A stretch of DNA of 37,994 bases from a virus. The DNA lies in the IMG/VR virus record IMGVR_UViG_3300021961_000255, positions 1 to 37,994 of that record, one strand, 5' to 3'. The first letter of the stretch is position 1. Each line of letters begins with the position of its first letter. A program made the translations under genes and the position numbers. A model generated the notes under the pieces. That model was not told where the DNA came from. It searched no databases and worked only from the letters and a program-made list of their open reading frames with translations. Below are positions 21,764 through 35,180 of this stretch, one piece after another.

Positions 21764-21792
21764 ATAATACATTGGGGCGCGTTCAGCGTCAA
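21764..21792 (-). promoter_or_regulatory. Sigma70-like promoter for the virion gene block
   Basis: On the minus strand TTGACG (21792-21787), a 17-base spacer and TATTAT (21769-21764) fit the host consensus in 10 of 12 positions. Transcription should begin near 21757, about 33 bases ahead of the ATG at 21724. It is back-to-back with the rightward ArdC promoter, with two A/T tracts between. Confidence 0.75.
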
Positions 21793-21823
21793 CATGTTTT
21801 TTTTAATTTTGGTGTTTTTTTTG

Positions 21824-21852
21824 TTGACAAACGTTTAAGTAGTATTTAATAT
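21824..21852 (+). promoter_or_regulatory. Sigma70-like promoter for the ArdC operon
   Basis: TTGACA (21824-21829), 17 bases, then TAATAT (21847-21852). The -35 box is perfect. The start should fall near 21859, giving a leader of about 37 bases. An AAACGTTT palindrome (21829-21836) begins at the last base of the -35 box and could be an operator. T8 runs just upstream (21796-21803 and 21815-21822) resemble an UP-element or intrinsic bend. Confidence 0.78.
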
Positions 21853-21895
21853 ACGCATATCGGCCGTGGGGGTCGATTCGGACTTAGGGGGAATC

Positions 21896-22732
21896 ATGGA
21901 CGTATACGAAATTGTCACCAATAGGATCATCAAGTCACTTGAAGCCGGCGTAGTGCCGTGGCAGAAGCCTTGGAGCTCGTCCACGGGGCGGCCGTGTAAT
22001 TATCTGACCCGCAAGCCTTACCAGGGAGTTAACGTATGGCTAACGGCGTCTGCAGGCTACTCTAGCCCGTTCTGGCTATCATTTAAGCAGGTATCAGACC
22101 TGGGCGGCAAAGTACTTAAGGGCGAAAAAGGTACGCCTATCGTAAGATACTCAAAATACACAAAAACAGACGCGGACGGCAACGAGCGCGAGCTTTTCTT
22201 TATCCGGTATTCTACGGTTTTCAATGTTGCCCAGACGTCCGGACTCGACATCGAACAGCCTGGCGAACATGTGCCAAACGTCAACGCTGACGCAATTGTC
22301 GCCAACTACCACGGCCCCGCCATTATCCATGGCCACGACCGGGCATTCTACAGCCCGGCGAGGGACCAGATCAGCCTGCCGGCGCCCAGTAATTTTAACA
22401 GCCCGGACGCGTACTACTCCACGCTCTTCCATGAGCTCGTACATTCGACCGGACACAGCTCGCGCCTAAATAGGCTGTCTGATACGGCATTTTTCGGTAG
22501 TGAACAGTATTCGAAAGAAGAACTCGTCGCCGAGCTTGGTGCTGCTTTTTTGTGCGCCGAAGCAGGAATCAGCAACGAAGAGGCACAGAGTGCGTCATAT
22601 ATCAATGAATGGCTCAAGGTCCTTAAGTCGGACCGCCGACTGATCGTAAGCGCCAGCTCTCAGGCTCAAAAGGCTTGCAGCCTAATCCTGGGACTGTCGG
22701 TCACCGAGCGGCACGGCGGAGATGAGGAGTAA
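21896..22732 (+). CDS. ardC: ArdC-type antirestriction protein (ssDNA-binding domain plus zincin-like peptidase domain)
   Basis: ATG 21896 follows AGGGGGA by five bases; a GTG at 21866 is rejected because it lacks a site. The product has 278 residues. The N-terminal domain (about 1-120; IVTNRIIKSLEAGVVPWQKP, then Trp-rich strands) is typical of the ArdC ssDNA-binding part. The C-terminal domain has HELVH at 179-183, a zinc-binding HExxH, with a downstream Glu in EELVAELGAA (about 208-217) as the likely third ligand. ArdC proteins of conjugative plasmids protect incoming DNA from restriction. Here it is the first gene of the only rightward operon, with its own promoter and a terminator. I infer an early-expressed shield for entering phage DNA. 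Confidence 0.88.
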   Translation: MDVYEIVTNRIIKSLEAGVVPWQKPWSSSTGRPCNYLTRKPYQGVNVWLTASAGYSSPFWLSFKQVSDLGGKVLKGEKGTPIVRYSKYTKTDADGNERELFFIRYSTVFNVAQTSGLDIEQPGEHVPNVNADAIVANYHGPAIIHGHDRAFYSPARDQISLPAPSNFNSPDAYYSTLFHELVHSTGHSSRLNRLSDTAFFGSEQYSKEELVAELGAAFLCAEAGISNEEAQSASYINEWLKVLKSDRRLIVSASSQAQKACSLILGLSVTERHGGDEE

Positions 22733-22983: not shown

Positions 22984-23029
22984 GGGCGCAGGTTGGGAAT
23001 GTGCTCTCAGCCTGCGCCCTTTTTGTTTT
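22984..23029 (+). terminator. Rho-independent terminator of the ArdC operon, probably bidirectional
   Basis: GGGCGCAGG (22984-22992) pairs perfectly with CCTGCGCCC (23011-23019); an 18-base loop lies between and TTTTTGTTTT follows. On the minus strand the same hairpin follows the stop of the last gene of the leftward block and is trailed by AGTTTT, so it can also end transcripts from that side. Confidence 0.88.
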
Positions 23030-23570
23030 AATCGTCGACGCTGTATTTCTTGTCCTGCCGCTTTAGCACCGGCCATTGTCCACCAGGATCAACAAACGAC
23101 AGATCCTGTACAAGCACATGATTAGTCGGCTGAGCGGTAAATCTTCCGTTATCTAATGCGATAACGAAAAATTCTTTAGCCTGGTCTGGGCTCTCCGACC
23201 ACCCGTCGTTCATAGGGACGATCGTAAATAGATACTCCCCCTGCAGCTTTGACCCATCCCGCAACTTAACGTGACATCTTGCGCGTTTCAAAAACGGGTA
23301 AGCGACTAACGCAAAGTCTGTGCCATAACAATCCCAAGTTTGCGCTTCGTGCGTGTGCCATTCTGGCGCCTCACCATGCGACAGCATGTGCAGGGGAATG
23401 TTGCGGTACACTGCGCCATTCTCCAATAAGACGTGACAACCGAACGTGCGCCCGGGCAGGCTTACAAGGCCAAACCACGCCCCGCGTATGGGCTCGAGTA
23501 CGCCAACTGCGCCAGGGTCAACCCACACATAGATATGAGGCTCGATCGGGCCCGCTCCGCTCCAAATCAC
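23028..23570 (-). CDS. Conserved phage hypothetical, last gene of the leftward early block
   Basis: The 180-residue product begins MIWSGAGPIEPHIYVWVDPG. It contains GAWFGLVSLPGRTFGCHVLL, then the NGAVYRNIPLHML and AQTWDCYGTDF segments, followed by GEYLFTIVPMNDGWS and KEFFVIALDNGRFTAQPTNH. I have a memory of this motif order from many unrelated phage hypotheticals, usually near replication or packaging genes, without a known function. It is beta-rich, with no membrane span and no catalytic motif I can name. The ATG overlaps the preceding gene by four bases. It ends at the shared terminator. Confidence 0.7.
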   Translation of the reverse strand: MIWSGAGPIEPHIYVWVDPGAVGVLEPIRGAWFGLVSLPGRTFGCHVLLENGAVYRNIPLHMLSHGEAPEWHTHEAQTWDCYGTDFALVAYPFLKRARCHVKLRDGSKLQGEYLFTIVPMNDGWSESPDQAKEFFVIALDNGRFTAQPTNHVLVQDLSFVDPGGQWPVLKRQDKKYSVDD

Positions 23571-23755
23571 GAGCCGATACGTCCGCTCATTGAGCCGGAA
23601 ACGATACTCCCGCTCACGTAGGCCGACAACAGATTACAGATCAGGCCCCTCATAGTAAAACCTTCTGCTTGGGCCTTCTGGCGTGCCGCATACCACAACG
23701 ACCGATCAAGTCCATACAGTGAATACGCTACCGTCTTTTTTTCCACGTTATCCAT
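23567..23755 (-). CDS. Ribbon-helix-helix-like small protein (possible regulator)
   Basis: The 62-residue product starts MDNVEKKTVAYSLYGLDRSL. The pattern KKTVAYSLYGLDRSLWYAAR, then QAEGFTMRGLICNLLSAYVS, fits a short beta strand followed by two helices with a turn before the second (EGxxMRxLIxxLLxxYV). Arc/MetJ-type ribbon-helix-helix repressors have the same size and layout. It is the only clear DNA-binding candidate in the genome and could act on the palindromic operators seen in the promoters. An antitoxin-like role is another option, but no toxin partner is adjacent. AGAGGGGA lies upstream of the start. Confidence 0.55.
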   Translation of the reverse strand: MDNVEKKTVAYSLYGLDRSLWYAARQKAQAEGFTMRGLICNLLSAYVSGSIVSGSMSGRIGS

Positions 23756-32316: not shown

Positions 32317-33042
32317 CTAAAAAGGAATGTCTTCTTCGTAGATATCCTGGACCGGCTCTTCGGGATACTCCGGCGGCAGAATTCTCGCCGGCTGCTCCGA
32401 AGCCGTTTCCGGCTTGGTCTTAATGTCATTCCGGAAATATTCCGTCAAATACTCTTGGAGCTGCCGATCCAATGCTGTCGCCTCTGACGCCGAAGCCGCT
32501 GAAATGGCACGCAATTCGAATTTAGGCACACGGTAGACAATGGAGCCCTTGCGTCCCTCGTCGCATCCTGCAATGACAATGGCGCTTTCAAATAGACGGT
32601 GACGGTGCTCGCGTTCAAATTCCATCCACGCGCTTAAAGCTGCACCCCTCAGCTTCAGCGCCCCAATCCGAAGGGAATCGCCGTCCTTGTATCCCAAATA
32701 CAAAACCGCCTGAAAACGGCCCCCGGCGGTCTTGACCTGGTCTTTAATGTCAACGTACAAACCCTCCGCGATGGTGCCGCCCTTAAATGCGCGCACCACC
32801 AAGTTCTGACGGCGAGTATCGCGCACCGCATTGGAATAGATGCCTGAAGACGACGCGTTGTGCCACCCTCCGATATCTGACAACTTGTCCAACAGCAAAA
32901 ACGAGAATGGCAGTCCGGAGACGATACGCTCCCCTCGAGCCTTATCAAAAAACTTCACCTCACCGTTTGACCACTCAAACCAGCGGGCGCATGGATTCTT
33001 GGCGCCAGACTGCTCGAGCTGCTCTTGGTTACTTCTTGACAT
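32317..33042 (-). CDS. Single-stranded DNA-binding-like protein with SSB-type acidic tail
   Basis: I choose ATG 33042, which has GGGGGAGA upstream and overlaps the preceding gene by 14 bases; a frame from 33099 lacks a site. The 241-residue product begins MSRSNQEQLEQSGAKNPCAR. It contains the beta-rich core QNLVVRAFKGGTIAEGLYVD and GGRFQAVLYLGYKDGDSLRI. The last residues read EEPVQDIYEEDIPF. The EEDIPF end mimics the DDDIPF tip of bacterial SSB, through which partner proteins are recruited. Many phages carry this type of protein in their replication block. Confidence 0.75.
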   Translation of the reverse strand: MSRSNQEQLEQSGAKNPCARWFEWSNGEVKFFDKARGERIVSGLPFSFLLLDKLSDIGGWHNASSSGIYSNAVRDTRRQNLVVRAFKGGTIAEGLYVDIKDQVKTAGGRFQAVLYLGYKDGDSLRIGALKLRGAALSAWMEFEREHRHRLFESAIVIAGCDEGRKGSIVYRVPKFELRAISAASASEATALDRQLQEYLTEYFRNDIKTKPETASEQPARILPPEYPEEPVQDIYEEDIPF

Positions 33043-33301
33043 TGTTCTCCCCCTGCTGGAGATTTCCACCCCACCGTCGTTCCTGCCCACATGCCTCACA
33101 CGTCCACAAGTCGAGCTCTTCGTTTGTCATTAGATGCTGGGTGTGCTTGAACCGACGCCCTAACTCGAATATCTCATCTGGCAACTCCACCACAGAACGC
33201 CCGCTGTCTTCGTCAAAATGTCGAATCGATTCGGCAACGTGCGCATCAAACACTTGCACGCTGCCATCATTGCAGATGCCCTCACAAACTAGCTGTCTCA
33301 T
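33029..33301 (-). CDS. Small hypothetical with CxxC
   Basis: The 90-residue product starts MRQLVCEGICNDGSVQVFDA behind a very strong site (GGAGGGGAGGA). It has two Cys-containing segments: VCEGIC near the start and WTCEACGQERRW near the end. These could bind zinc. The central part (SVVELPDEIFELGRRFKHTQ) is helical. It overlaps the start of the SSB-like gene by 14 bases. Family unknown. Confidence 0.6.
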   Translation of the reverse strand: MRQLVCEGICNDGSVQVFDAHVAESIRHFDEDSGRSVVELPDEIFELGRRFKHTQHLMTNEELDLWTCEACGQERRWGGNLQQGENNVKK

Positions 33302-33302
33302 C

Positions 33303-33677
33303 TTAAAATCCTCCCCTCCCAGTCACAATAAAATCGTCATGCTTAGCGGACGTGCCATTGGCCAACACCACACCGATATCATCGACATCTACCACGGTGT
33401 AGATCCCGTCGTCTGAATGTCGAATAAACCCACGGTCACCAACCCTGGCCGTCCGGGACAAATCAGCCAAACGAGCATCCAACTCACAATCGGGACACGT
33501 CCATGGGCTTTGTCCGTGCTGACCAGACATAACCGTAACGCTACAGGTCGAACACGTTACATGAACGCCTGCCAATAATTCTTGGCGGATACGCTCTAAG
33601 GCCTCCAACCCATTATCGACTGCATCAATAGCGTCCCTAACCGCTTGCTTTGCTTCAGTCAAATCGAATTCACGCAT
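33303..33677 (-). CDS. Hypothetical zinc-ribbon protein, first gene of the early block
   Basis: The 124-residue product starts MREFDLTEAKQAVRDAIDAV, ahead of which lies AAGGGGGT and, further back, a TTGACA promoter. An N-terminal helix leads to CSTCSVTVMSGQHGQSPWTC and PDCELDARLA, a zinc ribbon with two CxxC pairs. A C-terminal beta segment follows (DRGFIRHSDDGIYTVVDVDD). As first gene after the promoter it might regulate transcription or RNA polymerase, but nothing specific proves it. Confidence 0.62.
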   Translation of the reverse strand: MREFDLTEAKQAVRDAIDAVDNGLEALERIRQELLAGVHVTCSTCSVTVMSGQHGQSPWTCPDCELDARLADLSRTARVGDRGFIRHSDDGIYTVVDVDDIGVVLANGTSAKHDDFIVTGRGGF

Positions 33678-33698: not shown

Positions 33699-33728
33699 AT
33701 AATCCCAAACCTAACCGATCGTTGTCAA
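33699..33728 (-). promoter_or_regulatory. Sigma70-like promoter of the leftward early block
   Basis: On the minus strand TTGACA (33728-33723), 18 bases, GATTAT (33704-33699). Transcription should start near 33692, giving a leader of about 15 bases before the ATG at 33677. The spacer contains the palindrome CGATCG. Confidence 0.75.
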
Positions 33729-33814: not shown

Positions 33815-34057
33815 CTAGGGCGGAGCGGTGCGCCGGCCGCGGCCATCAATGCAACCACGCTCCAGCATGGTTTGAAAGTCTGCGTCTAATCGATTCGCCT
33901 CATCAACGCAACCGTCGCATGGCCCACAGCCCATGGATGTCCACGGCGCACCATTCGCGCACGTCAACGTCTGATGCCCTGTAGCAACCTCGTGTTCGGT
34001 CGTGTTCGGCTCGAGCTCTTCGAATAATTCGAGCTGTGTTTTGTCTGTTCGATACAC
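33815..34057 (-). CDS. Small Cys-rich hypothetical protein
   Basis: The 80-residue product uses a GTG at 34057, with GGGGGGAT about nine bases upstream. It begins MYRTDKTQLELFEELEPNTT and contains CANGAPWTSMGCGPCDGCVD, four cysteines in a zinc-finger-like spacing (CxxC twice). The C-terminal part is a basic helix and tail. It lies downstream of the micro-ORFs and upstream of the early promoter. Family unknown. Confidence 0.55.
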   Translation of the reverse strand: MYRTDKTQLELFEELEPNTTEHEVATGHQTLTCANGAPWTSMGCGPCDGCVDEANRLDADFQTMLERGCIDGRGRRTAPP

Positions 34058-34076
34058 CGCGCCCTATCCCCCCATC

Positions 34077-34187
34077 TTAGAGGCTCGGCCACATCTGGGC
34101 CTTCTGCACGCAGCCTGAGACGGTCGCCCCCGTAGCGTCCGGTGACGTAAAAACGTCAGCAGACCAGTACGCGAATCTTTCGACCAT
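34077..34187 (-). CDS. Possible 36-residue micro-protein (or frameshift extension of the 34156-34257 ORF)
   Basis: ATG 34187 to TAA 34077-34079. The peptide reads MVERFAYWSADVFTSPDATG and continues ATVSGCVQKAQMWPSL. The ATG has no ribosome site, but the frame is well-formed and overlaps the previous micro-ORF by 32 bases. A +1 shift at the UGA of that ORF would join the two into a 59-residue product. Whether it is translated on its own, by frameshift, or not at all is uncertain. Confidence 0.35.
   Translation of the reverse strand: MVERFAYWSADVFTSPDATGATVSGCVQKAQMWPSL
34143..34158 (-). other. Hairpin at the UGA stop of a micro-ORF
   Basis: TGACGT (34143-34148), four A's and ACGTCA (34153-34158) form a perfect 6-bp inverted repeat. 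On the minus strand it begins exactly at the TGA stop of the 33-residue micro-ORF. It could mark an RNA end, or help a recoding event. Confidence 0.5.
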
Positions 34188-34257
34188 CTGCGGGCATCGA
34201 CTGCGACGGTGCTGCTGACACCGACATGGGCTGGTCGAGGGTCGTGGGCGCGTTCAC
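34156..34257 (-). CDS. 33-residue micro-protein with good ribosome site
   Basis: GTG 34257 follows AAGGGGG by about four bases and the frame ends at TGA 34156-34158. The peptide reads MNAPTTLDQPMSVSAAPSQS and ends MPADGRKIRVLVC. Ser/Pro/Ala-rich start and basic end. Its stop sits in the context UGC-UGA-C. The well-placed site supports translation. Function unknown. Confidence 0.45.
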   Translation of the reverse strand: MNAPTTLDQPMSVSAAPSQSMPADGRKIRVLVC

Positions 34258-34369
34258 GTTGCCCCCTTGCCGATAATCCCTTCAGACTGTTTTCGGGACG
34301 TTCTAGCCCCCCGTGGGCATCAGGCCGGTCCTATCGTCCAGGGTCGCCTGCGTGGGCAGTGTGTGGGGA
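34258..34369. other. Gene-free stretch upstream of the sRNA promoter
   Basis: No reading frame with a plausible start, no tRNA and no promoter pair was found in either strand across these 112 bases. It lies between the start of the micro-ORF (minus strand) and the rightward sRNA promoter. It probably holds the 5' leader of the micro-ORF transcript. Confidence 0.5.
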
Positions 34370-34399
34370 TTGACTCAAGCGTGCGCTTGTGACGATAAT
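34370..34399 (+). promoter_or_regulatory. Sigma70-like promoter of a small RNA, with palindromic operator in spacer
   Basis: TTGACT (34370-34375), 18 bases, GATAAT (34394-34399): each box matches 5 of 6. The spacer holds a perfect 14-bp dyad, CAAGCG-TG-CGCTTG (34376-34389), filling the space between the boxes as repressor operators do. A second dyad, TGTGA...TCACA (34388-34409), covers the -10 and start region. Start predicted near 34406. No coding frame follows before the terminator. Confidence 0.72.
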
Positions 34400-34405
34400 G
34401 AATAT

Positions 34406-34478
34406 CACACCGCGCAGGCCCGGGCCCTCTCCGGTCTTGCTGGCCTCGACAGACTACCGGCTGTCGGGGCCTTTTTCT
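34406..34478 (+). ncRNA. Predicted phage small RNA of about 70 nt
   Basis: A strong promoter lies just upstream (34370-34399) and a textbook rho-independent terminator ends it (34442-34480), so a transcript of about 70 nt is expected. It has no start codon with a ribosome site. The first 35 nt are GC-rich and contain the self-complementary GGCCCGGGCC (34418-34427) and a C-rich CCCTCTCCGG (34425-34434), able to pair with GGAGAG-type ribosome sites. It is convergent with the minus-strand gene that stops at 34493, so it could also be antisense to that mRNA's 3' end, like oop RNA of lambda. The role is inference. Confidence 0.6.
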
Positions 34479-34480
34479 TT
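34442..34480 (+). terminator. Rho-independent terminator of the small RNA
   Basis: GGCCTCGACAG (34442-34452) pairs with CTGTCGGGGCC (34461-34471): 11 bp with a single G-U pair, 8-base loop, followed by TTTTTCTTT. On the minus strand the hairpin lacks a following T-run, so it is directional, though it lies just after the stop at 34493. Confidence 0.88.
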
Positions 34481-34492
34481 CACGGCTGAATA

Positions 34493-34720
34493 CTACACCC
34501 GATACGTCGCGTCGTCAACATCGGAAAACAATGTCTCGGAGAATCGGACGTCTGTAGACGTCTTTGGACGCATGGATAAAACTGGAGAAGAACTGGAGAA
34601 ACCCTTGGTAGTCACGCCGCGAGCGGTCTTCCGGCGCCCCACATCGTCACAGAGATAGCATCCATTACCACCACGATGCACTGAACGCACACAATCGCCA
34701 AACGCGCACCCGACGGTCAT
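34493..34720 (-). CDS. Small Cys-rich protein coupled to the VRR-NUC gene
   Basis: ATG 34720 forms an ATGA overlap with the VRR-NUC stop; a longer frame from 34882 overlaps that gene and is rejected. The 75-residue product starts MTVGCAFGDCVRSVHRGGNG and continues CYLCDDVGRRKTARG. C5, C10, C17 and C20 form a zinc-finger-like set. The C-terminal part is Ser/Thr-rich. Its stop faces the small-RNA terminator. A partner for the nuclease is plausible. Confidence 0.6.
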   Translation of the reverse strand: MTVGCAFGDCVRSVHRGGNGCYLCDDVGRRKTARGVTTKGFSSSSPVLSMRPKTSTDVRFSETLFSDVDDATYRV

Positions 34721-34983
34721 GTCAACAAACGCAGCAAATCGTCGACCCCGCGCAGAACCACAACCGGGGCGCCATTCCACGCCTGGATAAACTGTTCCTG
34801 CGACGGCCTCAACCGCCCAGTTTTGGTCTTGATCTCTATAAGATGATTCTGCCCACGGAATCCAATAATCCCATCCGGGCACCCCTTGCCAACCGCCGCC
34901 AACGATACCCAGCTGGCGCCGATATCCCTAGCCGCTTGCACAATGTCGACCTGCGTGGCGTCAATCTTAGCGGCCCGCCTCAC
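34717..34983 (-). CDS. VRR-NUC domain nuclease
   Basis: GTG 34983 has GGAGGT six bases upstream; a TTG-started frame from 35028 is rejected. The 88-residue product begins MRRAAKIDATQVDIVQAARD. The VRR-NUC core is VGKGCPDGIIGFRGQNHLIE, then IKTKTG, with PD (D37), E50 and K52 as the PD-(D/E)xK residues, followed by RPSQEQFIQAW. Stand-alone VRR-NUC proteins of phages resolve branched DNA or act in replication and recombination. It precedes the small Cys-rich gene by ATGA coupling. Confidence 0.85.
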   Translation of the reverse strand: MRRAAKIDATQVDIVQAARDIGASWVSLAAVGKGCPDGIIGFRGQNHLIEIKTKTGRLRPSQEQFIQAWNGAPVVVLRGVDDLLRLLT

Positions 34984-35180
34984 CAGACGACCTCCGCACG
35001 GCCGAACGCCGACCATCTCCCACGCCAATCAGTGCTTCCGACAGCGGCCACCTTCCACGAACGCCCCCTGACGCCCACAGCAGCCTCTAGGCCGCGCCTT
35101 GACGCCTCGAGCGATGCTAGACCCCTCCTGCCGTTAGGGACGGCTCTGAGGGCCTCAGAAAGCCTTTTGCGCTCTGTGGT
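34984..35180. other. Gene-free, hairpin-dense stretch between holin and VRR-NUC genes
   Basis: No frame here has a start codon, but the minus strand carries one that is open from inside the holin end down to a TGA overlapping the VRR-NUC GTG (see findings). Hairpins on the plus strand: CCGT-TAGGG-ACGG (35131-35143) and TCTGAG-GGC-CTCAGA (35145-35159). The latter is extended by GGC/GCC and followed by TTTT, like a weak rightward terminator. No promoter was recognised. Confidence 0.5.

Follow-up and report, generated by a model that had tools for sequence, protein, structure and literature searches.

A candidate oop-like small-RNA gene between the late and early operons of an environmental phage

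The IMG/VR virus sequence IMGVR_UViG_3300021961_000255, which stems from environmental DNA and was analyzed here over its entire 37,994 nt (hereafter the window), carries, in the gap that separates the late genes from the early ones, a promoter-to-terminator block on the plus strand, and we regard this block as probably a real small-RNA gene from its sequence signals. As the best reading of the unit we propose, tentatively and with less than even confidence, an autonomous gene for an oop-like phage small RNA that would act antisense on leftward read-through from the adjacent VRR-NUC gene. The unit is probably an orphan phage small RNA of an already well-known kind, as no relative was found in any of the collections searched.

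Results

Gene layout around the unit

The portal, major head protein, head-closure Hc3 and scaffold families of the window matched P22-like podovirus proteins, and we take the virion to be P22-like from our general knowledge of these families. The terminase shared at most 54% identity with the terminases of cultured Vibrio and Pseudomonas phages. Almost all of the genes are oriented leftward, running from the tail fiber through the lysis genes and VRR-NUC to a non-coding gap and then to the early block, which comprises, in order, a small ORF (33815-34057), the gene at 33303-33677, a phrog_6706 gene, an exonuclease gene, NinB and others; the ArdC-like gene (21866-22732) is the sole clear rightward gene. 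The only relatives of the phrog_6706 protein (32317-33099) in the phage collection were of mycobacteriophages, with 36-44% identity among the best matches listed, in contrast to the P22-like head genes.

The VRR-NUC gene (34717-35028, minus strand), which was recognized by Pfam VRR_NUC, phrog_93 and its coding bias, closes the leftward late/lysis block. It is followed by the only gap of any size that separates late from early genes (34058-34717; 0.66 kb). In coding-bias scans of both strands VRR-NUC scored clearly while positions 34058-34716 showed little or no bias, and we read this interval as a non-coding control gap that divides the late (lysis/VRR-NUC) operon from the early one. A relaxed scan from 33.5 to 36 kb detected no terminator on the minus strand, not even a weak one. 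To the right of position 34479 there is no plausible plus-strand gene, all supported genes there being on the minus strand.

Promoter and terminator

The near-consensus sigma-70-type promoter proposed in the first-pass annotation is present base for base on the plus strand at 34370-34399 (10/12 matches), with TTGACT at 34370-34375, an 18-nt spacer and GATAAT at 34394-34399. The promoter alone is unremarkable, since four sites with at least 10/12 matches and a spacing of 16-18 nt were found in the window (34370 and 21824 on the plus strand, 21792 and 33728 on the minus strand) against 2.3 expected from shuffled sequences. Nevertheless, the other three all lie at the borders of transcription units: the site at 21824 is just upstream of the ArdC-like gene, that at 21792 is divergent to the same gene, and that at 33699-33728 (minus strand; TTGACA-N18-GATTAT with TG before the -10) is just upstream of the gene at 33303-33677 and is the probable promoter of the early operon. 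The interval 21764-21852, which separates the terminase side from the ArdC-like anti-restriction gene, holds divergent promoters, TTGACG-17-TATTAT on the minus strand and TTGACA-17-TAATAT on the plus strand.

The terminator was found in both the fold and the terminator scan at 34442-34471, as an 11-bp stem (8 G-C pairs and one G-U) with an 8-nt loop followed by TTTTTCTTT, and it is strong on the plus strand only. The hairpin has a folding energy of -21.8 kcal/mol (z = -5.0), and its stem begins 42 nt after the promoter (34399 to 34442), in agreement with the hairpin and tail anticipated about 40 bases past the promoter. When both strands were scanned, two strict terminators were detected in the window against 0.005 per shuffled window, the null model being 400 shuffles that keep the local dinucleotide content. 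The second strong terminator (22984-23019) is downstream of the ArdC-like gene. Since both this terminator and the other promoters sit at the borders of transcription units, the scan criteria appear to pick plausible signals in this genome.

The combination of the two elements is hardly ever expected by chance. A promoter of at least 10/12 no more than 100 nt upstream of a strict terminator occurred in none of the 400 shuffles, and the analytic expectation is 1.5e-5 per window, a figure to be read as an order of magnitude only, as the scan thresholds were chosen after the site had been seen. Strong terminators were also rare in the DNA of related phages (about 1.9 Mb, in stretches that partly overlap), where only one other pair of such a promoter and a strong terminator was found (L016 of G009; see below). 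An equivalent unit at the late/early boundary was absent from a survey of 40 stretches of related phages and five cultured phages. A strict terminator-plus-promoter scan looks specific enough to nominate small RNAs in compact phage genomes otherwise devoid of intrinsic terminators.

The predicted RNA

The predicted small non-coding RNA (34407-34476, plus strand; ACACCGCGCAGGCCCGGGCCCTCTCCGGTCTTGCTGGCCTCGACAGACTACCGGCTGTCGGGGCCTTTTT), of which both the start and the end are predictions, has the length of about 70 nt that had been estimated earlier. In the predicted fold, an unpaired 5' end (ACACCGC) precedes an imperfect hairpin 1 with the loop CCCUC and then the terminator hairpin. A 73-nt stretch folds at -35.9 kcal/mol (z = -3.3), but this significance is due to the terminator hairpin, as hairpin 1 alone (z = -1.2) is no more stable than shuffled sequence.

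Neither ATG nor GTG occurs between the predicted start at around 34407 and the terminator. The earlier statement that no open reading frame lies between promoter and terminator holds in this sense, but a frame of 86-89 codons with weak coding bias opens upstream of the predicted transcription start (GTG at 34389 or ATG at 34398), overlaps the RNA and runs through the terminator. Together with the promoter and terminator, the lack of start codons inside the RNA supports a self-contained, non-coding unit, and the location of VRR-NUC on the opposite strand confirms that the predicted RNA is convergent with the VRR-NUC/lysis operon. An imperfect direct repeat, TGAATATCACACC (34399-34411) and TGAATACTACACC (34487-34499), brackets the unit. 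We considered a cis-antisense pair with a minus-strand promoter-like site at 34518-34490 (9/12) and rejected it, because such sites are expected by chance.

Operator-like dyads

The palindrome CAAGCG-TG-CGCTTG (34376-34389) is present in the promoter spacer, of which it covers most, rather than all as described previously. It is the core of a longer operator-like dyad, ATTGACTCAAGCG-TG-CGCTTGTGACGAT (34369-34396), which is symmetric at 10 of 13 positions, perfect in the inner six, and centered between the -35 and the -10. Dyads of this quality numbered five in the window against 3.5 per shuffled window, a count near chance. Two of the five fall within the 0.66-kb gap, the one exactly between the -35 and -10 and a second, CGTCCGGTGACGT-AAAA-ACGTCAGCAGACC (34136-34165), and this placement favors, without proving, operators. 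The further dyad noted over the -10, TGTGA (34388-34392)-N12-TCACA (34405-34409), is present at 34388-34409 and extends over the predicted start, but with its 5-bp arms we infer that it is weak and not beyond chance. A 62-aa Arc-like ORF at 23567-23755 (phrog_6506, E = 0.011) is a weak candidate for the protein binding the operator-like dyad. The unit had been described as tightly regulated; the spacer dyad is indeed operator-like, while the near-chance number of dyads and the weak regulator candidate leave such regulation unproven.

Searches for relatives

Searches of phages, plasmids and 50 related IMG/VR records returned no DNA homologous to the unit, nor did exact-word scans of IMG/VR and GTDB genomes, a result that counts against the reading proposed here. 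The closest record, IMGVR_UViG_3300021960_009512 (L002/L105), encodes identical terminase and exonuclease proteins and stops short of the locus by approximately 2 kb; no close relative reaching it was retrieved when VRR-NUC, the phrog_6706 protein, the exonuclease, a 124-aa gene and a 117-aa gene served as queries. These results agree with the earlier remark that no described counterpart is known, with the closest records stopping short of the locus. Rfam gave nothing at the gathering score, the best values being 16.9 against 39 and 15.4 against 50. The latter (15.4 bits, E = 3.5) excludes membership in the family of Xanthomonadaceae sX13, although the predicted RNA resembles sX13 and other C-rich-loop small RNAs in its exposed C-rich loop. 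Gene finders pass over small RNAs, which are therefore seldom annotated in uncultivated podoviruses.

Comparison with known phage small RNAs

In size and anatomy the unit resembles lambda oop, as had been suggested, and our relaxed scan, used as a control, recovered oop as well (9/12 promoter, 57 nt, 8-bp stem). Lambda OOP RNA is about 77 nt long. In the lambda unit pO-oop-to as in the present one, a promoter of the host type, whose -10 ends in ATAAT, precedes a short RNA that is not translated, and a GC-rich stem is followed by a run of T; both units are intergenic in origin and transcribed against a neighboring operon. As judged from sequence signals, the present unit thus has what defines OOP, namely its own promoter and an intrinsic terminator bounding a short untranslated RNA, here of about 70 nt. 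On the other hand, OOP is antisense to the 3' end of cII and lies next to O, whereas no cII or O homologue was recognized beside our unit, no coding sequence opposes it, and its promoter spacer carries a dyad. No significant match to the unit was found in the phage collection including lambda, so that there is no sequence homology to OOP.

The parallel with P22 sar holds less well. Both units measure about 70 nt, are bounded by a promoter and a terminator of their own and belong to phages of the P22-like virion type. Nevertheless, sar ends at the start codon of ant and has its promoter inside ant according to the P22 annotation, whereas our unit faces non-coding DNA and opposes no credible annotated gene, and family searches recognized no arc/mnt/ant locus among the scanned proteins of the window. 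The resemblance to sar in size and placement noted before therefore does not make the unit a counterpart of sar in the strict sense. The relaxed scan missed sar, because the T tail of its terminator is weak. Altogether, the unit would work like OOP by its anatomy but belongs to neither the OOP nor the sar family.

The single comparable pair in related phage DNA, among the structural genes of G009 (L016:15561-15753), likewise combines a promoter (TTGACA-17-CATAGT) and a terminator (14 bp), with about 160 nt between them. It differs in lying on the same strand as the neighboring structural genes, in being about twice as long and in bearing no sequence similarity to our unit. The G009 element may be a small RNA or a leader.

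Discussion

Possible antisense function

We propose that the host-type sigma-70 promoter at 34370-34399, probably under an operator, would drive synthesis of an untranslated RNA of about 70 nt ending at the strong intrinsic terminator (34471), and that this small-RNA gene points against the leftward late/lysis/VRR-NUC operon where the late genes meet the early ones. As no leftward terminator exists from 33.5 to 36 kb, any transcript reading through from VRR-NUC would contain the full complement of the RNA, and it is for this reason that we propose an oop-like antisense action. The RNA would pair with the read-through transcripts, which would have to extend 240-310 nt past the VRR-NUC stop, and convergent transcription would oppose the same transcripts; cleavage of the duplex or interference could then protect the downstream early control region or trim the late message. 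If the antisense role is true, the oop design would be known from a second case, which is unrelated to the first and sits at the boundary of an operon. A more specific version, in which the operator-controlled convergent RNA of about 70 nt stands in for a terminator where the late operon ends and, by antisense pairing or transcription collision, bars late read-through from the early control region, strikes us as unlikely.

Alternative explanations

The main rival to the antisense reading is that the same small-RNA gene produces an RNA aimed at the host, pairing in trans with host mRNAs during infection through its CCCUC loop or its ACACCGC 5' end. The RNA is free-standing with both the C-rich loop and the 5' end exposed in the fold, and phage small RNAs directed at host RNAs are established and of a well-known kind (PMC12197685). 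We nevertheless consider this rather unlikely, as no Rfam family reached the cut-off and the pairing of the RNA with the start regions of 48 phage genes was no better than that of shuffled controls. The latter result also answers the call for target prediction against phage translation starts, none of the 48 regions pairing clearly better than with shuffled RNA. Nor is the suggested anti-Shine-Dalgarno role of the C-rich stretch supported within the phage, since the GGAGAG ribosome site is absent from this phage, occurring just upstream of the start in none of the 48 listed genes. Alternatively, the promoter rather than the RNA may matter, with transcription through the gap activating a nearby replication origin or opening the DNA and the terminator confining it. 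Such a role has a precedent in lambda, in which OOP RNA does not serve as a primer but pO still matters for replication (PMC12197685), and the gap does contain dyads and short direct repeats (AACTGGAGAA twice, at 34580 and 34591). On the other hand, neither an iteron array nor an AT-rich origin is conspicuous (the GC content is about 0.60 at 34001-34500) and no replication initiator was found beside the gap, which makes this explanation very unlikely.

The unit could also be decayed or incidental, that is, a real terminator against stray rightward transcription preceded by a chance promoter-like match. Promoter-like sites of such quality occur about twice per shuffled window, the unit lacks evidence of conservation, and the terminator could simply keep stray transcripts from running rightward, in antisense, into the lysis operon. 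We hold this to be unlikely, because no other strong rightward promoter or gene is close enough to need a terminator there, a promoter of at least 10/12 would seldom fall 42 nt upstream by chance, and the remaining three sites of this quality look genuine. Attenuators and Q-dependent late promoters likewise consist of a promoter, a short RNA and a terminator, and a leader, an attenuator or a late-promoter element for plus-strand genes (riboswitch-like or of the lambda PR'-tR' type) was therefore considered. We rejected the riboswitch, attenuator and Q-dependent or PR'-type readings as highly improbable, since they fail without a rightward gene downstream: no same-strand gene directly follows the terminator, and the leader reading likewise drew no Rfam match at threshold.

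Other elements in related phages

A non-coding block with 82% identity over 150 nt is shared by two related virus records (L032:760-960, which is the same DNA as L094, and L038:4260-4430) and holds a minus-strand promoter-like/terminator unit of about 80 nt. The terminator stem is altered on both sides between the two (CGGCCTTGAG..CTCGAGGCCG versus CGGCTCCAGG..CCTTGGAGCCG), and we regard the block, which has no Rfam match, as a candidate conserved small RNA. A block of 43-48 nt, TTGTGGCTTGACTCCGCGAGAGCGGAGGCGTAACTTATGCGGG, is 98-100% identical among L032, L038 and L045 (3429-3471) and is found in a weaker form in L041 (3739-3800); with a dyad directly after TTGACT, the block resembles a promoter with an operator in the spacer. 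In Pseudomonas phage Tr60_Ab31 (L159:43335-43355), a terminator separates a Q-like gene from the one after it, and a promoter-like site lies about 190 nt upstream, an arrangement that resembles a lambda-type late promoter unit.
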